64,000 bases of DNA from Roseovarius sp. THAF9 (lineage in GTDB: Bacteria; Pseudomonadota; Alphaproteobacteria; Rhodobacterales; Rhodobacteraceae): the NCBI RefSeq assembly GCF_009363715.1, contig NZ_CP045404.1:2510001-2574000 (forward strand). Reading direction: 5' to 3'. The first letter of the stretch is position 1; the number at the start of each line of letters is the position of its first letter. Both the position numbers and the translations under genes were made by a program. The notes beneath the pieces were generated by a model. It was not told where the DNA came from. It saw only the letters and a list, made by a program, of their open reading frames with translations, and ran no database searches. Of this stretch, positions 4,953 through 44,967 are shown piece after piece.

Positions 4953-5405
4953 TCAGCCCCCGGCCGCCTTTTGGGTCAACTTGCCGAGCGCACCGGTCAT
5001 CTTCTGGATATACTCCGCGTCGTCGTCGATCCCGTCGAGTTCATCGAACATCTCTTCGGGGTCCTCGTAGGCCAGCCAGACCTGCCCGTTCGCATCCTCG
5101 TAGACAAGAACCTTCATCGGCAGGTACAGCCCCGCCAGCGGATCGTCCTGCATCGCAGGCGTGCCCAGCTTCGGATTGCCGAAGATCAGAACCTGCGACG
5201 GGGCCAGCTCCATACCCGCATCTTGGGCGCCTTGGGCGTGATCCACTCGGGCAAAGACCGTGGCCCCCGCACCGTCCACCGCCGCTTCCAGCGCGTCCAT
5301 CGTGCTGGCCACGTCATCGCTGGCCTGCACCTTCATCAGGTCGTCGTCGGCCAAGGCGGGGCTGGCCAGAAAGGTCAACGCGGCAAATGTTAGAAATCGT
5401 TTCAT
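4953..5405 (-). CDS. DUF302 family secreted protein
   Basis: 150 residues with a signal peptide (MKRFLTFAALTFLASPALA, cleavage before DD). The body matches the DUF302 fold: an N-terminal block asking for a repeated test of a small barrel, AGATVFARVDHAQGAQ, then LIFGNPKLGTPAMQ and PLAGLYLPMKVLVYED. The C-terminus is acidic. The family has no agreed function. The start at 5405 gives the signal peptide and has GGAGAC upstream. It lies on the opposite strand to hisA and hisF. Confidence 0.85.
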   Translation of the reverse strand: MKRFLTFAALTFLASPALADDDLMKVQASDDVASTMDALEAAVDGAGATVFARVDHAQGAQDAGMELAPSQVLIFGNPKLGTPAMQDDPLAGLYLPMKVLVYEDANGQVWLAYEDPEEMFDELDGIDDDAEYIQKMTGALGKLTQKAAGG

Positions 5406-5568
5406 CTCGAATGTCTCCTGCAAGGGGTCCGTCACCCTATAAGCTAAGCCGACCGCGCCACGTGGAAATAGACATTCGCGTGATCGGCCCGATCTTGCCG
5501 TAAGCCCACGCTCACGCACGCAAACACCCGGCAAACCGCCGGGTGCAGGCTCTCTTTGAAAGACAGGC

Positions 5569-8860: not shown

Positions 8861-9643
8861 TTATCCTCTGGATGCATATAGGGCCACCGCCGCGGCATTT
8901 GAGACATTGAGCGATCCGAACGCCCCCGCATAGGCGATCCGCACCAATTTGTCGCAGGTCTCTCGCGTCTTCTGGCGCAGCCCCGGCCCCTCGGCCCCCA
9001 GCACCAGCGCCACGGGACGGTCCTGCATCCCGACCAGCGCCTCCTTGACGGTCTCACTGGCCTCGCCGTCAAGACCCAGCACCAGGTATCCCATGCCTTG
9101 CAACGCGCTCATCGCATCGGCGAGGTTGCGCACCCGCAAATAGGGCTGGCGCTCCAACGCGCCGCTCGCGGTCTTGGCCAGCGCCCCGGTCTCCGGCGCC
9201 GAATGGTGCCGCGGCGCGATCACCGCCGACGCGCCGAATACCTCGGCCGAGCGCAGGATCGCGCCGACGTTATGCGGGTCCGTCACCCGGTCCAGCAGCA
9301 TCACCCGCGGCGGCCGAACCCCGTCGCCAAGACACACCTCTTCCAGCGCCCCCCAGTCCAGCGGCTTCACTTCCAGCGCCGCACCCTGGTGCACCGATTG
9401 CGGATCCAGCGGCGCGCTGAACTTGCGCGGGTCGGCCATCTCCGGCTGCATGCCCGAGGCCGCAATGGCATCGGCCAGCTTGTCGGCGGCGTTCTTCGTC
9501 AGCACCAGCCGCAGCTTCTCGCGGCGCGGGTTTTCCAGCGCATCGCGCACCGCGTGCAGCCCAAACAACCACACGGTTTCCGCCGCCGACGCCTTCTTGG
9601 CCTGTTCCTTTTCCACGACCCACTTGGGTTTCTTCGTTGCCAT
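8861..9643 (-). CDS. rlmB: 23S rRNA 2'-O-ribose methyltransferase RlmB (SpoU/TrmH family)
   Basis: 260 residues. An N-terminal L30e-like substrate-binding domain (WLFGLHAVRDALEN) is followed by the trefoil-knot SPOUT domain with the three family motifs: RVTDPHNVGAILRSAEVFGA, LVLGAEGPGLR, and GSLNVSNAAAVALY. It transfers a methyl group from SAM to a ribose in 23S rRNA (Gm2251 in E. coli). The start MATKKPK at 9643 is preferred to an upstream in-frame ATG because it begins at the basic N-terminal tail typical of alphaproteobacterial members. Confidence 0.92.
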   Translation of the reverse strand: MATKKPKWVVEKEQAKKASAAETVWLFGLHAVRDALENPRREKLRLVLTKNAADKLADAIAASGMQPEMADPRKFSAPLDPQSVHQGAALEVKPLDWGALEEVCLGDGVRPPRVMLLDRVTDPHNVGAILRSAEVFGASAVIAPRHHSAPETGALAKTASGALERQPYLRVRNLADAMSALQGMGYLVLGLDGEASETVKEALVGMQDRPVALVLGAEGPGLRQKTRETCDKLVRIAYAGAFGSLNVSNAAAVALYASRG

Positions 9644-9710
9644 CCGGGGGCCTCCTTCACAGGCGGCGGACAATGGCCCCGCACAGTCACAATCGCAAGC
9701 GATTTTCCGG

Positions 9711-9739
9711 TTGACGGGGCACCGGCCCGCTTCTAAACA
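9711..9739 (+). promoter_or_regulatory. Sigma-70 promoter of tRNA-Tyr
   Basis: TTGACG (9711-9716) and TAAACA (9734-9739) with an exact 17-bp spacer, 11 bp before the mature tRNA. Confidence 0.65.
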
Positions 9740-9749
9740 CGCGCCTCAG

Positions 9750-9834
9750 TGGGCGACAGGCCGCAAGGTGTGGCAGGGGACTGTAACTCCCTCGCGGAGA
9801 CGCACGCTAGGTTCGATTCCTAGGTCGCCCACCA
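9750..9834 (+). tRNA. tRNA-Tyr (anticodon GTA)
   Basis: An 85-nt class II tRNA with encoded CCA. The acceptor stem TGGGCGA pairs with TCGCCCA, the anticodon loop CTGTAAC reads GTA, a long variable arm (around CGCGGAGACGC) follows, and the T arm is GGTTCGATTCC. Confidence 0.95.
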
Positions 9835-9905
9835 CTTCCCGATCCAAATCCCGCCGACAGAAACACAGCCGCGCAGCGGGGGCGCTACGGCTGTCCGACG
9901 CGCCA

Positions 9906-9973
9906 GATTATTCGCAGAATAATCTATGCCCTTGGCCCACGCTGCAGACCCGTCGATTATTCGCAGAATAATC
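9906..9973. repeat. Pair of identical AT-rich dyads
   Basis: The 19-mer GATTATTCGCAGAATAATC occurs at 9906-9924 and again at 9955-9973, 49 bp apart start to start. Each copy is an inverted repeat with 8-bp arms around GCA. They lie between tRNA-Tyr and the sulfotransferase-like gene, in the 231-bp gene-free stretch 9835-10065, where nothing else is apparent. They could be operators, transcription-stop hairpins or copies of a dispersed palindrome family. Confidence 0.8.
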
Positions 9974-10065
9974 GGCACTGGATTGCATCGGCGGAATATT
10001 GCGCGATTCCACCACATGCGCTACACTACGGGCATAAAAACACAAAACAGGCACCGGGCAGGTCC

Positions 10066-10968
10066 ATGAAATACGTTATCCACTTGGGCGTCCACAGGAC
10101 GGCGTCCATGCTGTTGCAGCAGAACCTTTCGGCCAATCTCGATCAATTGCGCGCCCAGGGCGTGTTCTACGTGAACGCCGAAACCCCCAACCTTCTGCGC
10201 CGCCAGGTGCGCATGATCCGCCGCCGGCACAGGCCCGGTTCGACCCCGAACGAGATCGGCCATTTCGAAGCCACAAACACCGCCATCACTCGGACCGCCA
10301 ACGAGGCCGGCGCCGAAACGGTTCTCATTTCCGACGAGCACCGCCTTGGTCCCTCGATGACCCAAAGCCTGAAGTGGAACGAGGCGCACCCCGGCTTCTA
10401 TCCGCAGGCCGCGACCAACCTGCAACACGCCCAGGCTGGCCTGCCGCTCGCGGACACGCGCCTGCTGCTCTACACCCGCAACGCCGAAAGCTACCTGCTC
10501 AGCCTCTATTCCGACGCGATCCGTCAGAACCAAGTCGCCATGACGCTGGAACAGTTCTGCCGCAGCGTGAACTTCAACTCGATCAACTTTTTTGCGCTGG
10601 AACAAGAGCTCGCGGGGCTGCACCCGAACCTTCAGGTGAAGTCGCGCCAGTTCGAGCGGATCAAGCTCGGGCCAGAGACCTACCTGCGCAGTTTCCTGCG
10701 CGATATCGGGCTCGATCCCGCGCCCTTCACCCTGCATCCCGCGCCACCGCAGCCACAGCTCGATGCGATGCAGGTCGAGGCGCTCTTGCACATCATGTCA
10801 GGCAGCCAGTCGAAACGCGCCGACATGGTCGCCCGGCTGCGCGAGAACGTGCTGCGCGGCGCGCCGAACCCGCTGGCGCCGCTGGTGCTGCCTCAATGGG
10901 TCACAGACTCGATGCGCGTCACCGACGAGGGCCGCGCCTCCGACGCGGGACGCACCCACGCCGCCTGA
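10066..10968 (+). CDS. Sulfotransferase-like P-loop protein
   Basis: 300 residues. The N-terminus YVIHLGVHRTASMLLQQNL resembles the strand-loop-helix of PAPS-dependent sulfotransferases (consensus like HIGxHKTGTTxLQ), but the loop reads HRTASM rather than the usual KTGTT/S. Later segments with RLLLYTRNAESYLLSLYSD match the 3'-phosphate-binding strand R...S seen in that fold. It may therefore be a divergent or inactive sulfotransferase, or a related enzyme acting on surface sugars. The gene stands alone, 92 bp after two AT-rich dyads. Function is inferred from motif only. Confidence 0.6.
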   Translation: MKYVIHLGVHRTASMLLQQNLSANLDQLRAQGVFYVNAETPNLLRRQVRMIRRRHRPGSTPNEIGHFEATNTAITRTANEAGAETVLISDEHRLGPSMTQSLKWNEAHPGFYPQAATNLQHAQAGLPLADTRLLLYTRNAESYLLSLYSDAIRQNQVAMTLEQFCRSVNFNSINFFALEQELAGLHPNLQVKSRQFERIKLGPETYLRSFLRDIGLDPAPFTLHPAPPQPQLDAMQVEALLHIMSGSQSKRADMVARLRENVLRGAPNPLAPLVLPQWVTDSMRVTDEGRASDAGRTHAA

Positions 10969-10986: not shown

Positions 10987-11649
10987 TCAGCCCTTGCGCT
11001 TGTCCTTGGGCCGCCAGGTATCCAGCCAGCGCCGGACCCGTCCGCGCCGGTCCTCGATGGCATCGCCCGCCGCGTCGAACCGCGCCTCGACCCCGTCCCA
11101 GACCGGGTCGATCCGCCGCGCCCGGAACCGCCGCCACAGCCGCCAGACGCCGTAGGCGACCAGCCCGAAGACCGCGAGTATCAGGGTATTCAGCCACGGA
11201 AACGGCTTGCCCACCTCCGGACCGGCCACTGGCCATATGCTGACGCCGTTGGGAAAGATCGACAGGAACTCGTTGCGCCACCCGTAATGCTTCAGCGCGG
11301 CCCAGCGCGGCGCTTCAGAGGTCGATTTCAGGTCTGCCGCCTCGGCCTGCAGGTTCGACGTGTCGAACTTGAAATAGGGCGGCCAGCCCCAGCTTGTGTC
11401 CTCGTTGCGATAGACCATGGTGCTGCCATCCGCCCGCACCGTCTGGATGAAGAACACGTCGCGGTTGATTGCCGTGGCGTCATTGCCGGCATCGGGGCTG
11501 GCCCAGAACAGGCTGTTCTCGCCGAAATCGATCCGCTTTTCGTAGGTGTCGGTGACCCGCACGATATCGGTCTGCGGCAGGGTATAGTGAAAGAACGCCG
11601 CCACCAGCACCCAGAACGCCGCCCAGAAAAGCCATTTGAGATACACCAT
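10987..11649 (-). CDS. DUF1523 family membrane protein
   Basis: 220 residues with an N-terminal membrane segment (LKWLFWAAFWVLVAAFFHYTL), a roughly 130-residue extracytoplasmic domain (DIVRVTDTYEKRID, SLFWASPDAGND, WGWPPYFKFD), a second membrane segment near residues 152-170 (WLNTLILAVFGLVAYGVWRLW) and a basic cytoplasmic tail. This is the arrangement of DUF1523, of unknown function and seen mainly in Rhodobacteraceae. It is the last gene of the nine-gene minus-strand array that starts at 18479, 11 bp after the 88-aa membrane protein. Confidence 0.8.
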   Translation of the reverse strand: MVYLKWLFWAAFWVLVAAFFHYTLPQTDIVRVTDTYEKRIDFGENSLFWASPDAGNDATAINRDVFFIQTVRADGSTMVYRNEDTSWGWPPYFKFDTSNLQAEAADLKSTSEAPRWAALKHYGWRNEFLSIFPNGVSIWPVAGPEVGKPFPWLNTLILAVFGLVAYGVWRLWRRFRARRIDPVWDGVEARFDAAGDAIEDRRGRVRRWLDTWRPKDKRKG

Positions 11650-11660
11650 CGCCCGCCCCT

Positions 11661-11927
11661 TCAGTGAAAGTTCGTGAAATAGATGATCGCGGCCACGATG
11701 CTGAAGGGCACCACGTAGACACCAAGGATCAGCTTGCGCCGCAGCGAGCCGTCATACTCTTCCAGCCCCTTCTCGATATAGGCGTCACGGTCGCCGGGCC
11801 GGCCTTCCTCCTCCCACCATTCGCGCAGCTTGGCCTTCCGCACGCTGCGCGAATAAAGCGACAGAACCACGTAAAGGATCGTGCAGACGATGAACCCGAT
11901 GATCAAAAGCCGTGCCAGTGCCGCCAT
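11661..11927 (-). CDS. Small two-pass membrane protein (88 aa)
   Basis: Two hydrophobic helices (residues about 5-24 and 66-84) flank a polar loop with REWWEEEGRPGDRDAYIEKGLEEYDGSLRRK, which is likely cytoplasmic given its charge. I do not recognise a family. It lies 3 bp after the 462-aa gene and 11 bp before DUF1523 on the same strand, so it is almost certainly co-transcribed with them. Confidence 0.75.
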   Translation of the reverse strand: MAALARLLIIGFIVCTILYVVLSLYSRSVRKAKLREWWEEEGRPGDRDAYIEKGLEEYDGSLRRKLILGVYVVPFSIVAAIIYFTNFH

Positions 11928-11930
11928 GTG

Positions 11931-13319
11931 CTATCCCTTTCCCTTCGTGCCCGCCCGGCGAGTCACCGGCCCCCAAGGGCCGACCCGCGCCAAAACCGCC
12001 TCGAGATCCGCCGCCGGTTCCGGCGCTTTCGGCGGCGCGGGCTCTTCCATCGGCGCGTCGTGGCCAAAGAGTGCCGCGCGCGTGCCCAGCTTGTCCACCT
12101 GGTATTCGTTCAGCAGAAAATCGACGACATAGGCGCGCTTGGTGTCCGCCCACGACTCGTAGCGGCGGTAAAACAGGCTCTTGTGGCAGATGAAAAGCTG
12201 CCGCACATCCTTCGGCGCCAGTTCCGCCAGCAGCATGTTCACCAGTTCCGCGTCCTTGTGCGCCGCCGCCCGCAGCGTGTAGAAATACGCCGGGTTGTCC
12301 GAGGCGATCACCGGCCACGGCCCGCCATTCTCGGCCCAGTTCAGCAGCGCGTTCAGCGTGTGGAATTCCTCGGGCAGAAGGTCCGAATGCCGCCGCGCCA
12401 ACCGGCGCATCTCGGCCCTCGTGCGGCCTGCAAGTTCGACGTCCTCACCGGCCAACGCATCGACCAGCATGAAATCCATCTTCTGCCGCAGGATCGCCGC
12501 CGCGTCGATGCCGCGTGCCTTGACGATCGGCTCCACCAGACCGTTGAGATCAAGAAAACTGGCCACCCGGTTGCGGTCAGTCAGGTCGAACACATAGTCG
12601 ATCCGCCCGCCCTCGAACGGGGTCTTGTCCTGCGCACAGATTACGCCGGGCAGTTCAAGGTTTTGAAACAGGTACACCCCGCCAAAGTGACTGGTCCAGT
12701 AATTGCGCTGCTCGAAGCTCATTTCCTTCAGATCGATGGGGTTGCGCAGCACGTCGCCGGTCTGCCCCGCAAGCTCGATCATCTCCGCAATCAGCACGTC
12801 GTCGAACCACGCGTCCTCTTCCGACATGAACCGCTCGACCTTTTCATCCAGCTTTTCCGCCTGCCGCAACGCCCCGTTGGTGGTGTCCGCTTCGATGGTG
12901 ATCCGTCGGATATCGAACAGTCGTTCCGGGCTGGACATGTCATAAACGCTGTTGACCAATTCACCCGCCACCGCATCCCGCGCCGTCAGCGCAAAAAGCG
13001 CCGGCTCGTTTTCCTCGATGAACTGCTTCAGGATACCGCGCGAGGTCGAAAACTGCGCATTCAGAAGCGGCGCGCGCTTCTGCTCCGTGGTCAGCAGGAT
13101 GAACTGCCGGTTCACGCCTGCATGGTTGAGGTAAAGATCATCGCCCAGCTCATGCCCCACCTCCGGCGAATAGCCCGAGATATCGACATAGAAATCTGTC
13201 AGATTGGTGGTCTCGCCCGTAAGATGCTCCAGCGCGCGATTATACCGCTCCACCAGCGCCGGGCTCGTCACATGCACCAGGTTGCCGAACATCAGGCCGG
13301 ATCTGATCAGACGTTCCAT
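11931..13319 (-). CDS. DUF6638-like protein of the AAA+ array
   Basis: 462 residues, soluble, without signal peptide or membrane segment. The N-terminus MERLIRSGLMFGNLVHVTSP is typical of a protein found in Rhodobacteraceae next to this AAA+ ATPase; the DUF6638 label is from memory and not checked. Recognisable blocks include YVDISGYSPEVGHELGDD, FILLTTEQKRAPLLNAQF and a C-terminal domain ending in a Pro/Ala-rich tail. No catalytic motif is obvious. ATG 13319 is chosen because the upstream in-frame extension lies in a repeat. Two dispersed repeats separate it from the 124-aa gene upstream. Confidence 0.75.
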   Translation of the reverse strand: MERLIRSGLMFGNLVHVTSPALVERYNRALEHLTGETTNLTDFYVDISGYSPEVGHELGDDLYLNHAGVNRQFILLTTEQKRAPLLNAQFSTSRGILKQFIEENEPALFALTARDAVAGELVNSVYDMSSPERLFDIRRITIEADTTNGALRQAEKLDEKVERFMSEEDAWFDDVLIAEMIELAGQTGDVLRNPIDLKEMSFEQRNYWTSHFGGVYLFQNLELPGVICAQDKTPFEGGRIDYVFDLTDRNRVASFLDLNGLVEPIVKARGIDAAAILRQKMDFMLVDALAGEDVELAGRTRAEMRRLARRHSDLLPEEFHTLNALLNWAENGGPWPVIASDNPAYFYTLRAAAHKDAELVNMLLAELAPKDVRQLFICHKSLFYRRYESWADTKRAYVVDFLLNEYQVDKLGTRAALFGHDAPMEEPAPPKAPEPAADLEAVLARVGPWGPVTRRAGTKGKG

Positions 13320-13330
13320 GCGCCACCTCC

Positions 13331-13353
13331 GTAGGGTGGGTTTCCATCCCACC
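13331..13353. repeat. GTAGGGTGGG-type inverted repeat, copy A
   Basis: GTAGGGTGGGTTTCCATCCC followed by ACC: arms GGTGGG and CCCACC. This is one of five related copies in the window (others near 49890, 52765, 54170 and 55640). It lies between two genes of the AAA+ array. Confidence 0.75.
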
Positions 13354-13425
13354 ATCCCCGGGCCGCCCCAAGCGCGCTCGCGCCCGGGACCCAATCAGAG
13401 GCCTCTTCACGGCTGCGAGTGTGAG

Positions 13426-13446
13426 GTCCCGGGTCAAGCCCGGGAC
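13426..13446. repeat. GTCCCGG-type inverted repeat, copy 1
   Basis: GTCCCGG and CCGGGAC arms with a GTCAAG-type centre. It is related in sequence to copies at 27393-27415 and 52728-52748, which carry the complementary centre CTTGAT. It lies 80 bp from the GTAGGGTGGG element. Confidence 0.7.
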
Positions 13447-13476
13447 AGGTGCGCCCCTTCACTGACCGCTTACCCA

Positions 13477-13851
13477 TCAAGCCTCCCCTCGCACGATATC
13501 GCGGTTGCGCAATCGCTCCACACGCTGCGCCAAGCCCAGCCACATGAAGACAAGCACCGGACCCCACACCACCACCGCCGAAACCGAGGTTCGCATGTAC
13601 ATCCACGCCACCGCACCCTGTTCGGCAAGCCCGGGTCCGCCCATCAGGCTGCGCTTGTCGAACAGCGCGAACACACCTGCGCTCAGCCCCACCAGCAAAC
13701 CGGCCGACACGATGACCGATACCAGAACCCGGCCGTGCGACCGGGTCTCCCGCGGCGCCAATAGCCACGGCAACAAGGCCGCAAACCCGCCGATGATCAG
13801 CAGCGGCAGGCCCGTGTTCAGCAATGTCACGCTCGTGTCGTTCATCGCCAT
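13477..13851 (-). CDS. Three-pass membrane protein of the AAA+ array (124 aa)
   Basis: Three hydrophobic helices are visible: GLPLLIIGGFAALLPWLLA, VLVSVIVSAGLLVGLSAGVFALF and SAVVVWGPVLVFMWLGLA. The loops are short and the C-terminal tail is basic then acidic. I do not recognise the family. The start may be at 13851 or two codons later (MNDTSV). It begins 15 bp after the AAA+ ATPase stop on the same strand, so it is very likely part of the same transcript. Confidence 0.75.
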   Translation of the reverse strand: MAMNDTSVTLLNTGLPLLIIGGFAALLPWLLAPRETRSHGRVLVSVIVSAGLLVGLSAGVFALFDKRSLMGGPGLAEQGAVAWMYMRTSVSAVVVWGPVLVFMWLGLAQRVERLRNRDIVRGEA

Positions 13852-13866
13852 TCAGCGCGCCTGATC

Positions 13867-15810
13867 TCACGCGCCATCCTCCTTCGCCGCCATGTACCGC
13901 CGCTTCGCCTCCTCCGTCCGGCCAAAGTCGCGCACCATGGTCTCGATTGCCACCTCGTCCGACTTGTCCGCATAGCGGAACTCGGAATCCGCGTAGCGGT
14001 TGATCTCTTGAACAACCATCTCGACCGTAATCGGCTGGCGCAGTTCCTCGATCATCCCCTTTTTCTCGTCATAGGACTTGAACAGGAACAGGTCCGGCTT
14101 CTCCATCCACTCGTCCGGCAATTCGAAATCCATCGCCCGCACCTTTACTGCGTCGGTGATGTTCTTGATCGCACGGCCCGTGAACCGCTCATCCGCCTCC
14201 TGAATGCCCTTCAGGTACGTCCCCAGCTTGGCAATCGTGTCCAGCTTACCGATATCCTTTTCCACACGCTCATAGACCCGGATCAGTCCTTCCTCATGTG
14301 GCCGCGCGTGGCTCTCGAACGATGCCGCAACGGCCTTCTTGATCTCCTGCGCGGCATAGACCTCGTGCTGGCCCAGCGGGATGTCGTGGTTCTTCCCCAT
14401 CAGCAGGTAAAGGATATCAATGTAATCCTCCCGCGTCTGCGGCCCGTCCACCAGGAACCGCGCGCCCGCCCTCTGGCGCAGCGCGTCATCCACGTTCTCG
14501 GGGTAGTTCGAGAACATCCCGAAGGTGCAATTCCCCCGCACCACCGTATTGGCCCCGGCAAAGCTCTCCATCAGCACAGCGGTGATCTCCAGCTGCCCCG
14601 CGCTCGATTGCCGGTCGCCCCGCTTGCCTGCCAGTTGGTCGATATCGTCAATCGTCCCGAACCCGATCACGCCCGGATCGATCACGGTGTTGATGAACGC
14701 CTTGGCGTTCTGCGCCGACTTGCCCTGGTAGCTGTCGATGCTCTCGGTGCTCAGGTTCTGATACCGAAACGGATAGCCCACGTTGTCGCAATAGCCCTTG
14801 ATCAGCCCCGCCATCATCTGGATCAGCGTCGTCTTGCCGGTCCCCGGCTTGCCATCCCCCATGAAGGTAAAGATGAACCCGCCCAGTTCGGCGAAGGGAT
14901 TCAGCCGCCGGTCGAAATCATAGGCCATCAGCATTTTCGACAGCTTCAGCGCCTGGTACTTGGCGATATGGTTGCCCACCACCTCGTGCGGCTGCTTGAA
15001 GGTCATGGTCAGCGTGCTGGACTTGCCCTTTGATGCCGCGTCAAAGCCGCGAATGGTGAAATCATCCGCCTCCACACGCCAGCTTGCGCCGGTAAAGGCG
15101 GCCAGCCGCCCGGCATTCTGGGCGCGCAGCGCGATCTTCTCCATCAACTGCTCCGCAAAGGCGCTGACCGTCGCCACCAGCCGCGCATCGTCTCCGGCAT
15201 GGGCCGCGATATCCTGATCCAGCTCCCACAACGCGCCGTGCAGGGCCAATTGCGAATTGTCGGTCAGAACCTCCTCTACCTCGCCCACCTCGACGCTTAC
15301 CTCCGAGCCATGCGGTGCCAGCAGGAACGCCGTCGCGTTGGCAAAGACATGCCCCACCGCCAACGCCTCGGCAGCCAGAAGCTCGGTGAACTCGGTCTTG
15401 CGGTCCGCGCCCAGCGACCCGGCCAGGTTCGCCCGCCGCAAATCAGCCAGCCCGGTGACCTCGGAAAACTGCTCGCCCACGGCCAGCGCTATCGCAATCG
15501 CGCGGCGCAACCCGTGCAGCACCGTCGCCTGCATCGGGCTCACCAGCGGGTCGTCGCCATCTGCCGCCTCGATCCGCTCCACCAGGTGCACGCCCTCGGG
15601 TCGCGCGGTCGAGCGTGTCACCAGCCCCGGCGTCGTGGTACGAAACCGCCGCCGCGTGCCCAATCCGGCCGACTTTTCCTGCTGCGGCGCCTCCCCCGGC
15701 TTGGCAATGCGCGGCGTGTGGTCGAACCCCGCCAGCATCGCCGCTGCCGCCTCGTAGTGCTTGGCGATATCCTCTTCGCGCAATTCCATCGTATCGGCCG
15801 TCAGGCTCAT
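13867..15810 (-). CDS. AAA+ ATPase with long N-terminal region
   Basis: 647 residues. The first 300 have no motif I recognise and contain an Ala-rich helical stretch. The AAA+ module follows: Walker A GDGKPGTGKTT (about 317-327), Walker B-like VIGFGTIDDIDQL (about 380-392), a sensor-1-like Asn in MFSNYPENVD (about 437) and an arginine-finger candidate RQRAGARF just after. A C-terminal helical domain ends in MAAKEDGA. It lacks protease or nuclease domains, so it more likely remodels or moves a partner. The neighbouring membrane and coiled-coil proteins are candidate partners. GGGAAT-like SD is weak; the start is the first ATG after the upstream spacer. Confidence 0.88.
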   Translation of the reverse strand: MSLTADTMELREEDIAKHYEAAAAMLAGFDHTPRIAKPGEAPQQEKSAGLGTRRRFRTTTPGLVTRSTARPEGVHLVERIEAADGDDPLVSPMQATVLHGLRRAIAIALAVGEQFSEVTGLADLRRANLAGSLGADRKTEFTELLAAEALAVGHVFANATAFLLAPHGSEVSVEVGEVEEVLTDNSQLALHGALWELDQDIAAHAGDDARLVATVSAFAEQLMEKIALRAQNAGRLAAFTGASWRVEADDFTIRGFDAASKGKSSTLTMTFKQPHEVVGNHIAKYQALKLSKMLMAYDFDRRLNPFAELGGFIFTFMGDGKPGTGKTTLIQMMAGLIKGYCDNVGYPFRYQNLSTESIDSYQGKSAQNAKAFINTVIDPGVIGFGTIDDIDQLAGKRGDRQSSAGQLEITAVLMESFAGANTVVRGNCTFGMFSNYPENVDDALRQRAGARFLVDGPQTREDYIDILYLLMGKNHDIPLGQHEVYAAQEIKKAVAASFESHARPHEEGLIRVYERVEKDIGKLDTIAKLGTYLKGIQEADERFTGRAIKNITDAVKVRAMDFELPDEWMEKPDLFLFKSYDEKKGMIEELRQPITVEMVVQEINRYADSEFRYADKSDEVAIETMVRDFGRTEEAKRRYMAAKEDGA

Positions 15811-15878
15811 TTCAATATTCCCAATTTTTCATTGTTCCATAAATACTCCCGCCGGAGGCGTGGCCCGGAACGGGCCAA

Positions 15879-17006
15879 TCAATATCTTAAAACCCGCCCC
15901 CCGGCGCTGACCACGTACTTGGTGACGGACGAAAAACCCGGCGGGTTCCTTTCAGCCAGCACCTGGTAGGGCCGCTCGGGCAGGATGATGCTGCGCTCCA
16001 TCCGCGTCGCCCCGGTCTCGGCCCCCTGCCCTGAAAACGGATCCAGCGCAAAGACCTGCCGCTCCACCGTTCCAAACCAGCCCGCGCGTTCCTCGATCAC
16101 GCGCTCGCTTTCCAGCACCTCGTCGGTCCAGGCCAGCGCCCAGTCCTGCCCGACCGGCGCATCCGCCTGCGCCAACACCTCACGCAGCGGCCCGCTCTGG
16201 CGGGTGAAGGCGTGGCTGTACATCGGGCCCACGTGAAACCGCCGCATCCGCTTGGGGTGTAAATCGTCGAAACTCTCGTCGAACCCCTTGGCGATGGTCA
16301 GCAGCTTCAGACCGCCCAAGCTCTGCGCCATCAGATGTGCCTGCACTTCGGGCCAGCGCCGCTCGTCCTTGCCCAGGGGCGCGCGCCCCGTATCCTCGAC
16401 CTCCATCAGGTAGATCGTCGGCAGGTTCACCTGGCTGTCATAGACCGCCCAGTGCAACAGGTAGCGCCGCCGCTCGTCCAGCCCGCTCACCCACTGGATC
16501 TGCGGATCGTTCTGCGCCCAGAAAAGATGCCCGCGCAGCATTTCCTCGTAATACAGCCGCTGTGACAACGCGAATTGCAGGCGCGTCGGAATCGTTCGCT
16601 CGGAAATGATCTGCTCGACCATCTCGCGCTTCAGCGTTTCGGTATCCGGCATTCCGTCCAGGTGCCGCCGCGCCTGCGCGGCATCATTGGCCATCACCAT
16701 CAGTTCCGAGAACATCGGAAAGCCACTTTCCCGCACATCCATCGCCAAAGAGCCGAAAAACTGCCCGGTGTCGCGCCCGACCAGCAGGTACTTCATGCTC
16801 AGCGCCTTGAACGTATAGGCGATGCCCTGAACATAGGTCGTCAGAATTTCGACCTCCTGCTTGCTCAGGCTGCCTTCGGCCTGCATCACGGCGGCAACCC
16901 GGTTCAGATGCGCCGTAATCCGTTCGAACTTGGCGAAATAACGGCGCGACGCGAAAAGATCCGTCAGCGCCACGCGGTCCGATTTTTGGGCGCCGGTATC
17001 ACTCAT
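15879..17006 (-). CDS. Conserved protein of the AAA+ array (375 aa), unrecognised
   Basis: 375 residues, soluble, with no signal peptide or membrane helix. Helical N-terminal half (YFAKFERITAHLNRVAAVMQ, QEVEILTTYVQGIAYTFKAL), then a mixed domain with HLFWAQNDPQIQWVSGLD and VNLPTIYLMEVED. The C-terminus is beta-rich. I see no known catalytic motif and do not recognise the family. The start ATG (17006) overlaps the previous gene by 8 bp (ATGAGTGA), a sign of translational coupling and a probable stoichiometric partner. Confidence 0.75.
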   Translation of the reverse strand: MSDTGAQKSDRVALTDLFASRRYFAKFERITAHLNRVAAVMQAEGSLSKQEVEILTTYVQGIAYTFKALSMKYLLVGRDTGQFFGSLAMDVRESGFPMFSELMVMANDAAQARRHLDGMPDTETLKREMVEQIISERTIPTRLQFALSQRLYYEEMLRGHLFWAQNDPQIQWVSGLDERRRYLLHWAVYDSQVNLPTIYLMEVEDTGRAPLGKDERRWPEVQAHLMAQSLGGLKLLTIAKGFDESFDDLHPKRMRRFHVGPMYSHAFTRQSGPLREVLAQADAPVGQDWALAWTDEVLESERVIEERAGWFGTVERQVFALDPFSGQGAETGATRMERSIILPERPYQVLAERNPPGFSSVTKYVVSAGGRVLRY

Positions 17007-17235
17007 GTTTTCGCGTTCTGTTGTTGGCAAAGAACTTTGCAAACCATGGAAAAACAACCCAAATCAAAGCTGCCAATGTGGCTGCGTACACCATGAAATC
17101 CCTCCAGTCCGAATAGGACTGCCCACCTCCAATCGACTGATAGAAGAATTTGGTCCCGCAAAGGACCACCAGAACCAAGAACAGAACGAAGCGATAGCGC
17201 AAATCGGAAATGCCCTTGCTGGTCTTGTAAGGCAT
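16999..17235 (-). CDS. Small two-pass membrane protein (78 aa)
   Basis: Two hydrophobic helices (FVLFLVLVVLCGTKFFYQ and FMVYAATLAALIWVVFPWFAKFF) separated by a short SIGGGQSYSDWRD loop, with a basic tail FANNRTRKHE. I use ATG 17235; a TTG just upstream at 17238 is the only alternative. Its first base is shared with the stop of the preceding 54-aa gene (TGATG), and its last 8 bp overlap the 375-aa gene, so three consecutive genes are coupled. Confidence 0.75.
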   Translation of the reverse strand: MPYKTSKGISDLRYRFVLFLVLVVLCGTKFFYQSIGGGQSYSDWRDFMVYAATLAALIWVVFPWFAKFFANNRTRKHE

Positions 17236-17399
17236 CAAGAGCGGCCACCACCGCCGCCCTTGCGGCCCCTGCTGATCAGGATCAGCCCCGCAACTCCGAA
17301 ACCCACACCGACAAGGTTCACCCAGGCCGGCACCGTGAAGACAAAAGACACCACGAGGCAGACGACCGACAGAGCAATGGCAAGCGTTCCCAGCCCCAT
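17235..17399 (-). CDS. Small two-helix membrane protein (54 aa)
   Basis: An ATG at 17399 opens a 54-residue frame that begins MGLGTLAIALSVVCLVVSFV, has a second hydrophobic stretch WVNLVGVGFGVAGLILIS, and ends in a basic Gly-rich tail GRKGGGGGRS. It starts 3 bp after the coiled-coil gene stop and ends in TGATG overlapping the next start. The spacing, two clear membrane helices and position in the array make it a real gene despite its size. No family recognised. Confidence 0.7.
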   Translation of the reverse strand: MGLGTLAIALSVVCLVVSFVFTVPAWVNLVGVGFGVAGLILISRGRKGGGGGRS

Positions 17400-17402
17400 G
17401 CC

Positions 17403-18479
17403 CTAGCCGCCATACGCGTTGGCGTCGTGCTTCTCGATGATCTTCGAGAACCGACGCGCGAACCGCTCGTCGGCCTTGGCCTTGGCCTCCAGCACCTCGC
17501 GCGCAAAGACCATGTGATCCTCGTGCGCCTCCAGCATGTCGGCCATCTTCTGGTTGGTGGCAGCACCAATCCCCGCCATGGCGCTCTGCGCCTCCTGGTC
17601 GGTCTTCACCCCGATCTCGTTGATCCGGTGCGCCACATCCTGCTGCTGCGCGGTCTTCAGCGACTTGGTCAGCGCATCATACAGCACAACCCGCTGCTTC
17701 GTGTCGGTCTGCAACTTGTTGATCAGCACCATCTGCGTCGCCGCCTGGTTCTGAAGGCTGTCGACCCAGGTCTTGCCCTTCTCGATATACCGCTCCAGCG
17801 TCTGGCTTTTCGCCAGCTTGACCTGCTCCTGCTGCACCATCTCGTTATACTTGGCGTTCATCTCCGCCAATTCGCTTTCCAGCTTGGTGCGGGCGGCCGC
17901 GTCGGTTTCGTTGGCGATCTTGTTCTCCAACTCGATGATCTTGGGATCCATCCCCTGGATATCCGCGCGCAGCGTCTCCAGTTCGCCCACCGTCGCCTCG
18001 CGCTCGTCCAGCGTCTCGGTCAGGTTCGTCTCGACCTTCACCTTGTGCTCCTCCAGCGTGCGCAGCTGGCCTTCCAGCAATTGCACGATGATATCGGATT
18101 TCGAGATAAGGTCCTGCAACTTGTCGTCGATGCTGGCAGTGCGGATGCGCTCCTGCCGCATGCTGTCGGCCTTATGACGATTGAAGATACCCACGAAGCT
18201 TTCCCAGCCCGTCTTGTTGCGCATCTCGTCGAAGTCGCGCGAAAAGCCCGCGGTTACGTCGTCCAGCCCCATGATCAGCTCGGCAATGTTGGCGTTCATC
18301 GTCTCGGTATGCGCGTGCACCTCGTCCAGCGTGGCGTTCTCGATATCTAGGCTGGCATCCTCGCCGCCCTTGATCTTGGACCGCGCGGTTTCGATCTTGC
18401 TGGTCAGTTCGGCGATCTTCGCCTGCGCCGATGCGACCTGTTCCTGACTTTCGCGCACCTGCGCATCCAAATTCGCCAT
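17403..18479 (-). CDS. Coiled-coil protein, TelA-like
   Basis: 358 residues, almost entirely helical with long heptad-rich stretches (residues 1-40, 150-230 and 250-300). There is no membrane segment. The layout, with a central region LEGQLRTLEEHKVKVE, then IEKGKTWVDSLQNQA and INKLQTDTKQRVVLYDALT, recalls the toxic-anion-resistance TelA family, but the match is by eye and weak. AAAGGGAA lies upstream of ATG 18479. It is the first gene of the AAA+ array and follows a heat-shock-type promoter at 18519-18546. It is a plausible client or adaptor of the AAA+ protein. Confidence 0.7.
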   Translation of the reverse strand: MANLDAQVRESQEQVASAQAKIAELTSKIETARSKIKGGEDASLDIENATLDEVHAHTETMNANIAELIMGLDDVTAGFSRDFDEMRNKTGWESFVGIFNRHKADSMRQERIRTASIDDKLQDLISKSDIIVQLLEGQLRTLEEHKVKVETNLTETLDEREATVGELETLRADIQGMDPKIIELENKIANETDAAARTKLESELAEMNAKYNEMVQQEQVKLAKSQTLERYIEKGKTWVDSLQNQAATQMVLINKLQTDTKQRVVLYDALTKSLKTAQQQDVAHRINEIGVKTDQEAQSAMAGIGAATNQKMADMLEAHEDHMVFAREVLEAKAKADERFARRFSKIIEKHDANAYGG

Positions 18480-18518
18480 CCCTGTTCCCTTTCGAGCAAG
18501 TTAATGCCTTTAACATCA

Positions 18519-18546
18519 ATATGGGGTCTGCGTCCCGGATTTGAAG
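18519..18546 (-). promoter_or_regulatory. RpoH (sigma-32) type promoter of the AAA+ array
   Basis: On the minus strand CTTCAAA (18546-18540), 13 bp, CCCCATAT (18526-18519), 40 bp before the ATG. The classical sigma-32 pattern is CTTGAAA-N13/14-CCCCATNT, so there is one mismatch in the -35. The -10 block and what follows (CCCATATTGATGTTAA) match the sequence in front of rpoH (44968-44996) almost base for base. Confidence 0.65.
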
Positions 18547-44034: not shown

Positions 44035-44931
44035 TCAGGCCGTCGCCATCATCCCCTTCTCGGCGGCCAGGCTGCGCATGCGCTTCTGCAGCTTCTCGAA
44101 CGCCCGCACCTCGATCTGCCGGATCCGTTCGCGGCTGACATCGTACTGCCCGCTCAGATCCTCCAGCGTCACGGCCTTTTCGTTCAGCCGCCGTTGCGTC
44201 AGGATATCCTTCTCGCGATCGTTCAGCACGTCCATCGCCTCGGCCAGCAGTTCGCGCCGCGCTTCCAGCTCGTCGCGCTTCTCATAGTCACCGGCCTGGT
44301 CGGCATCCTCGTCCTCCAGCCAGTCCTGCCACTGCATCGTGCCTTCGCCCTCGGTGCCGACCGTGGCGTTCAGCGACGCGTCGCCCCCGGACATCCGGCG
44401 GTTCATGCTGATCACCTCGTCCTCGGTCACGCCCAGGTCGGTCGCGATCTGCTTCACCTTGTCGGGATGCAGGTCTCCGTCCTCCAGCGCCCCGATGCGA
44501 GCCTTGGCCTTGCGCAGATTGAAGAACAACTTCTTCTGCCCGCTGGTCGTACCCAGCTTGACCATCGACCAGCTGCGCAGGATGTACTCCTGAATACTGG
44601 CCCGGATCCACCACATCGCATAGGTGGCCAGGCGAAAACCCTTCTCGGGATCAAAACGTTTGACCGCCTGCATCAGGCCCACGTTGGCTTCCGAGATGAC
44701 CTCGGCCTGCGGCAACCCATAGCCGCGATAGCCCATGGCGATCTTCGCCGCCAGACGCAGGTGGCTGGTGACCATCTGGTGCGCGGCGTCGGTGTCCTGT
44801 TCCTCGACCCAGCGCTTGGCCAGCATGTATTCCTGTTCCGGCTCCAACAGCGGAAATTTCCGGATTTCCTGCAAATACCGGTTCAGCCCGGCTTCGGGCG
44901 ATGGCGCAGGAAGATTTGCGTAATTGCTCAA
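44035..44931 (-). CDS. rpoH: RNA polymerase heat-shock sigma factor RpoH
   Basis: 298 residues. Regions 2-4 of sigma-70 type are recognisable, with the RpoH box QKKLFFNLRKAKARIG. Region 2.4 has FRLATYAMWWIRASIQEYILR and region 4.2 SRERIRQIEVRAFEKL. The start codon is TTG with GGAGG nine bases upstream; the resulting N-terminus MSNYANLPAPSPEAGLNRYL is the expected one. It is preceded by a heat-shock-type promoter and followed by a hairpin terminator, so it is a monocistronic, self-regulated gene. Confidence 0.95.
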   Translation of the reverse strand: MSNYANLPAPSPEAGLNRYLQEIRKFPLLEPEQEYMLAKRWVEEQDTDAAHQMVTSHLRLAAKIAMGYRGYGLPQAEVISEANVGLMQAVKRFDPEKGFRLATYAMWWIRASIQEYILRSWSMVKLGTTSGQKKLFFNLRKAKARIGALEDGDLHPDKVKQIATDLGVTEDEVISMNRRMSGGDASLNATVGTEGEGTMQWQDWLEDEDADQAGDYEKRDELEARRELLAEAMDVLNDREKDILTQRRLNEKAVTLEDLSGQYDVSRERIRQIEVRAFEKLQKRMRSLAAEKGMMATA

Positions 44932-44967
44932 CCCTGTGACCCTCCAATGTTTATTGTCTTAACATCC

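Follow-up and report, generated by a model that had tools for sequence, protein, structure and literature searches.

The 64-kb stretch of Roseovarius sp. THAF9 DNA analyzed here (the window, in whose positions unprefixed coordinates are given) carries nine open reading frames (ORFs), all on the minus strand and spanning positions 10987-18479, that include an AAA+ ATPase gene together with genes for a coiled-coil protein and several small membrane proteins. An earlier note on this DNA had proposed that nine minus-strand genes in a tight array form an undescribed joint AAA+ system, and all nine ORFs are indeed present. In the order of transcription, these encode CC358 (17403-18479), a coiled-coil protein of 358 residues; M54 (17235-17399) and M78 (16999-17235), two proteins with two predicted transmembrane segments each; U375 (15879-17006), a 375-residue protein of mixed alpha/beta build and unrecognized family; the 647-residue AAA+ ATPase (13867-15810); M124 (13477-13851), with three predicted transmembrane segments; a 462-residue protein, counted from its ATG, of the DUF6638 family (11931-13319); M88 (11661-11927), a protein with two transmembrane segments that usually follows DUF6638; and DUF1523 (10987-11649), also with two, which is usually the last gene. 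The first junctions, re-measured as a 3-bp gap, a TGATG (1-nt overlap), and an 8-bp overlap, agree with the earlier description, and are followed by gaps of 68, 15, 157, 3, and 11 bp. A tRNA-Tyr gene (9751-9834, plus strand) lies approximately 1.2 kb past the DUF1523 end of the array.

A hydropathy scan predicted two membrane segments each in M54, M78, M88, and DUF1523 and three in M124, as expected from the earlier assignment of the 54-, 78-, 124-, and 88-residue proteins to the membrane, and none in CC358, U375, the AAA+ ATPase, or DUF6638. Three of the nine proteins score above Pfam cut-offs: the ATPase as AAA (PF00004; 46.2 bits vs. a cut-off of 21.2) and the last protein as DUF1523 (PF07509; 233.5 bits vs. 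a cut-off of 23), both as previously identified, and the 462-residue protein, which had been called unrecognized and is in fact a full-length match to DUF6638 (PF20343; 743.2 bits, profile positions 1-439 of 439). An NCBIfam scan of the array proteins returned nothing over the cut-off, and PADLOC and PHROGs scans returned weak or general AAA matches.

A conserved core of four genes

The core of this array consists of four genes, CC358, U375, AAA+, and DUF6638, as found in two sets of loci that share genomes and are not independent of one another. Among 56 loci picked for the presence of DUF6638 or the AAA+ gene, the four genes stand in the same order and on the same strand in 54 (at L047, the contig ends within CC358). 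One exception, L041, has DUF6638, M88, and DUF1523 on a short contig and no AAA+ gene in the preceding 3.2 kb; the other, L076, is a decayed remnant (approximately 8978-10287) that retains only a relative of M54, a 72-residue DUF6638 fragment, M88, and DUF1523. The second set comprises the 80 top-ranking AAA+ profile matches among 549 confirmed stretches and has all four core genes in order at 74 loci; the six exceptions are L113, to which we return below, L138, with 323 N in the locus and CC358 not found, and L121, L127, L135, and L157, which run into contig ends. Downstream of the core, M88 is present at 48/56 and 69/80 loci, and DUF1523 at 50/56 and 75/80.

The same four-gene order is found in Rhodobacteraceae-type genomes, Aestuariispira, Stappia/Roseibium, Halomonas, other alphaproteobacterial families (L094-L099), and Vibrio. 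The proteins of Vibrio parahaemolyticus share 39% (CC358), 27% (U375), 39.6% (AAA+), and 26% (DUF6638) identity with those of the array; its DUF6638 homologue scores 201.6 bits to PF20343, and the four genes are followed by mfd. S. meliloti has homologues of AAA+, U375, and DUF6638 in order and, in the place of CC358, a gene for a 362-residue protein matched by position only. Gene order, which the earlier note had put forward as a check on its proposal, is therefore kept beyond close relatives, as far as Vibrio, and its idea of an undescribed joint system holds for a four-gene core in fixed order from Roseobacters to Vibrio. The core genes also occur together: CC358 is present in five of 289 genomes of the class, the same five in which DUF6638 exceeds its cut-off, while a sixth genome has DUF6638 below it. 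The AAA+ gene was recovered with either of two queries in 26 of 398 genomes of the phylum. Pairwise distances of the four core proteins correlate with r of 0.895-0.944 (114 loci, with kinship ignored), and a separate comparison that left out DUF6638 gave r of 0.82 between core proteins and lower values, 0.55-0.64, for DUF1523. A joint four-gene unit is well supported.

The AAA+ protein contains an intact P-loop, with a Walker A motif (GKPGTGKT, residues 320-327) that is invariant in alignments of 14 and 11 sequences except for the K after the first G. Compared as a profile with solved structures, its nearest match is the ATPase domain of an i-AAA protease (5ubv, E = 4.9e-5), and no protease family of Pfam matched it. 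No Pfam family matched U375 at E ≤ 1, consistent with its earlier description as unrecognized. Structure prediction, likewise suggested as a check, gave a confident model of this protein (mean predicted local distance difference test score, pLDDT, 90.6; predicted template modeling score, pTM, 0.89), in which long N-terminal helices precede a mixed alpha/beta part, yet a Foldseek search of the PDB returned no match at E ≤ 0.001 (best 0.15). The DUF6638 model is also of good quality (pLDDT 85.8, pTM 0.81), with low confidence from residue 421 on. In sequence searches for solved relatives, the profiles of CC358, U375, and DUF6638 gave nothing better than E = 0.13. DUF6638 also gave a Bestrophin-like match (E = 6.8e-4) that falls short of the curated cut-off and was treated as chance, because the protein has no membrane segment. 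In the open PMC literature, DUF6638 is named in no paper, DUF1523 in four, and DUF2852 or DUF4389 in three; no title on this cluster turned up, and on the repression of rpoH one paper was found, which concerns a small RNA.

Exchangeable neighbors and variable flanks

The core is interrupted by two slots of variable content, of which slot 1, between CC358 and U375, is 7-916 bases wide and slot 2, between AAA+ and DUF6638, is 3-2389 bases wide in the 80-locus set. Slot proteins were picked by hand from ORFs, with short ones and many without hydrophobic segments excluded. The slot-1 selection of 36 proteins, 34 of them from relatives and two from the window, divides into 24 unrelated groups, and the slot-2 selection of 69 proteins into 29. 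Two or more hydrophobic segments are found in 32 of the 34 slot-1 proteins of relatives, although the hand selection leaned that way. M124 falls in the most populous slot-2 group, with 16 of the 69 proteins. M54 is a singleton among the 36 slot-1 proteins and has relatives at 2/80 loci and at L076, and M78 is related to none of the others in this slot-1 comparison. Because the slot proteins fall into unrelated groups, three of the nine array genes are exchangeable occupants, and the view of all nine as a single system was abandoned, M54, M78, and M124 being slot occupants. Such exchangeable membrane proteins may be effectors or passengers.

Slot 2 also holds Mrr-like, DUF559, DUF2188, and other families, with one member each among the 69 proteins, and in S. 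meliloti it contains a transposase gene together with one for a DUF559 endonuclease. The earlier statement that the array has no nuclease stands for the window, but at other loci the slot sometimes has Mrr-like or DUF559 nuclease genes. DUF559 endonuclease-like genes were seen in this slot at L097 and in S. meliloti (loci listed: L097, L118, and L295), and the one DUF559 protein among the 69 probably comes, by its sequence, from the Tabrizicola locus L118.

The surroundings of the cluster are likewise variable, the commonest upstream family being found at 37/116 loci and the commonest downstream family at 23. The near flank of the window is common to L124 only, and some genes farther out in the window are also found at L056 and a few other loci. 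Chains of shared flanking genes connect 105/116 loci upstream, and loci with both flanks in common form 33 groups, the largest of 30; such sharing within lineages speaks against full mobility. Conserved flanks were dropped as a part of the system, since no flanking gene is universal, though related loci share contexts. In a 42-row tree of the AAA protein, two Halomonas copies share a fork (support 98/99) with those of Leisingera and one more Rhodobacteraceae bacterium, and because they nest among Rhodobacteraceae-type rows, their placement points to transfer of the whole cluster. Carriage of the core by known phages was considered and rejected, with no match in phage records or viral contigs.

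A putative operator shared with rpoH

The array had earlier been drawn to position 18546, but the CC358 ORF stops at 18479, and the remaining stretch contains a putative operator, GATGTTAAAGGCATTAACTT (18498-18517, minus strand), 18 bp upstream of the CC358 start and with one mismatch to GATGTWA-N7-TWACAT. Its occurrence was counted with the pattern ATGTWA-N7-TWACAT against mononucleotide shuffles, related loci not being independent draws. Upstream of CC358, the pattern is exact at 49/118 loci and present with at most one mismatch at 65/118, compared to 0.2 in shuffles at the same tolerance. With at most one mismatch, it precedes the internal genes at 0/132 loci for U375, 0/132 for AAA, 1/132 for DUF6638, 0/117 for M88, and 0/125 for DUF1523. 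This presence of the dyad before CC358, and almost never before the internal genes, indirectly supports one transcription unit.

The same dyad stands before two further genes, rpoH and DUF2852, that are unrelated to CC358 and to each other. It was found with at most one mismatch at 27/30 rpoH loci (shuffles 0.02) and 29/30 DUF2852 loci (shuffles 0.06), the THAF9 loci included, the samples being 30 of 59 and 30 of 54 genomes with a match, respectively. In the window, rpoH (44035-44931, minus strand) has it at 44947-44966, 15 bp before its start. The THAF9 genome as a whole, with one mismatch allowed, has seven matches at five distinct sites, which belong to the cluster, rpoH, DUF2852, and a LysR gene, with one in coding sequence. 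An exact search of 61 genomes of the family returned 21 matches in 18 genomes, or 20 distinct sites, of which six lie upstream of CC358, five of rpoH, five of DUF2852, and one of DUF4389, the other three being elsewhere; the backward pattern, as a control, gave two. Judged from sequence, this sharing of a putative operator carries the most weight among the new findings and argues best for a single transcription unit. The sharing fits the idea of a role in heat stress, and since the same dyad precedes rpoH and DUF2852, the cluster would belong to a small stress regulon where the dyad is present. A possible sigma-32 site was also found upstream of CC358, with at most three mismatches, at 43/118 loci vs. 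6.0 in shuffles, and a sigma-32 promoter is proposed there tentatively.

Several observations concern other copies of the dyad. The operator-bearing DUF2852 membrane-protein gene of THAF9 lies outside the window (L241:3013-3528), and many DUF2852 loci show CTTG-type promoter-like bases directly after the operator. An exact copy occurs in one genome just upstream of a DUF4389 membrane-protein gene (L244, approximately 1500-1851). A site at 5387-5406 of the window overlaps the start of a DUF302 coding sequence and was set aside as chance. A LysR-type gene (L242:2137-3030, minus strand) has at its start a near-copy of the operator that is palindromic, and its product is a candidate regulator, as a lead only. 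In Rhodobacteraceae, the heat-shock sigma factor may be repressed or activated by a putative regulator acting at the dyad.

A candidate membrane-linked remodeling machine

The reading preferred here, to which we assign a probability of about one half, is that the array is one transcription unit for a membrane-associated AAA+ remodeling complex under joint control with the heat-shock sigma factor. Enzymes of the AAA+ type typically reshape protein assemblies or take them apart, and a membrane-linked remodeling complex is the simplest reading because the AAA+ gene lies next to genes for membrane proteins, for a coiled-coil partner, and for two further partners whose function is unknown. The array would be inherited as one unit with a core of four soluble proteins, in which the AAA+ ring would remodel CC358, a client that U375 and DUF6638 present as adaptors, or both. 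Attachment to the inner membrane would be provided by M88 and DUF1523, possibly with help from the exchangeable small membrane proteins. At slightly more than half of the loci examined, the unit stands behind a dyad that also precedes rpoH and DUF2852 and would there belong to a small stress regulon, so that the complex would be made when the control of rpoH is active and may be induced by heat or envelope stress.

Several observations weigh against this reading. The acidic pair of the Walker B motif is usually DE, and the ATPase has GTIDDID at residues 385-391, with both D invariant in the 14 and 11 aligned sequences; because DD replaces DE at this position, its ATP hydrolysis is uncertain. 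One locus from a metagenome-assembled genome, L113 (10001-11896), has an AAA+ gene 78% identical to that of the array and no partner genes across 21.9 kb, and the cluster is patchy, with DUF6638 in 90/198 genomes of the family. The dyad itself has two or more mismatches in 53/118 regions upstream of CC358. In the 61-genome sample, exact copies before CC358 are a minority, because only 6 of the 29 genomes carrying DUF6638 have one; the THAF9 genome has no exact site, and the 60 bases directly before CC358 show no operator at L097, L098, L095, L092, and Halomonas L136. The putative operator is thus lineage-bound. The possible sigma-32 site of the window reads CTTCAAA and lacks the TTG of the -35 element, which matters for RpoH promoters in R. 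sphaeroides according to PMC3441632.

The main rival is a conflict or anti-phage module, in which a conserved AAA+/coiled-coil/sensor core would govern membrane or nuclease effectors that are exchanged in the two slots. The unrelated occupants of the two slots, hand-picked as they were, the Mrr-like, DUF559, or other nuclease-like genes sometimes found in slot 2, the patchy presence of the cluster, and the nesting of the Halomonas copies would all suit such a module, as would a weak match of the AAA protein to TRIP13 in PADLOC (E = 4.8e-5). This match is one of only weak AAA or coiled-coil matches of the core to PADLOC-DB 2.0.0, together with LmuB (4.9e-4), and none is system-specific; U375 and DUF6638 have no PADLOC match at E ≤ 1, and CC358 has weak ones only. 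The lack of relatives in phage records or viral contigs, the slow evolution of the core (CC358 has a mean identity of 79% across 64 loci), slots that are at times just a few bases wide, and the operator in common with rpoH and DUF2852 also speak against a conflict module, which is considered unlikely. It is very improbable, and already disfavored, that the genes are neighbors without a joint function, held together by recombination at a shared site. Variable flanks and slots that take unrelated genes could be explained in this way, but not readily the recurrence of this ordered set of four genes all the way from Roseobacters to Vibrio, where identity is 26-40%, nor the joint presence and absence of CC358 and DUF6638.

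A further alternative takes up the TelA resemblance of CC358 in the earlier note and holds that the cluster is a divergent Ter/TelA-type module, with CC358 as a remote TelA in a sub-membrane structure that the AAA+ protein assembles or dismantles. According to PMC7824862, TelA of the Ter system forms sub-membrane structures. CC358 has no Pfam family above cut-off and no match to TelA (PF05816) at E ≤ 1. Aligned by hhalign with a diverse TelA set, it gave a weak match over residues 86-245 (probability 26.5%, P = 7e-4), vs. 0.7-0.9% for reversed controls; the probability fell to 4.8% in global mode, and the profile-profile comparison with a narrow TelA set gave 0.7%. Coiled coils, moreover, align easily. 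A scan of ten proteins, those of the nine genes plus that of one upstream neighbor, found no TerB, TerC, TerD, or TerF, a true TelA gene of THAF9 lies elsewhere (G000:C1:777434-778429), and in cluster-bearing genomes such as G000, G022, G154, G252, G544, and G525 TelA matches fall only at other places. The possible resemblance comes from the weak signal with the diverse set; CC358 was rejected as an ordinary TelA on account of the missing Pfam match, the narrow-set result, and the TelA present elsewhere in the genome, and the Ter/TelA-type module is judged decidedly unlikely.

Beyond the preferred reading of a co-regulated remodeling complex, a wider picture is doubtful but conceivable, in which a horizontally transferable four-protein AAA+ machine, present in at least two classes of Proteobacteria and placed in Roseobacters under a regulator shared with the heat-shock sigma factor, drives small membrane proteins that are swapped in two fixed slots. 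If true, a single conserved motor would work for many different effectors at the membrane. In our judgment, a multi-gene machine of fixed order and without a name is unusual in bacteria that are well sampled; the novelty of the system rests on the lack of a match in the libraries and literature searched, not on demonstrated function. The cluster raises testable questions as to the regulator of rpoH in Rhodobacteraceae and the role of the AAA+ unit in the heat-shock response.

Among known systems, the classic AAA ATPases (PF00004; 5ubv) share with the array protein a Walker A motif and a C-terminal AAA module, while the array protein differs in its N-terminal region of approximately 300 unrecognized residues, in the DD at Walker B, in having no protease family match, and in its fixed partners CC358, U375, and DUF6638. 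Two of the array proteins are members, by curated cut-off, of DUF6638 (PF20343) and DUF1523 (PF07509), both families of unknown function. TelA and the Ter systems of stress and phage resistance resemble the cluster in their cytosolic coiled-coil protein, membrane-protein neighbors, stress setting, and the weak colinear profile match of CC358, and differ from it in that CC358 has no TelA match at E ≤ 1, no Ter partners were found among the scanned proteins, and its AAA+ partner is fixed. As for the RpoH-type stress regulons, such as those of RpoHI and RpoHII in R. sphaeroides (PMC3441632), the dyad operator of the cluster is distinct from a sigma-32 promoter element, but the cluster has this operator in common with rpoH itself.

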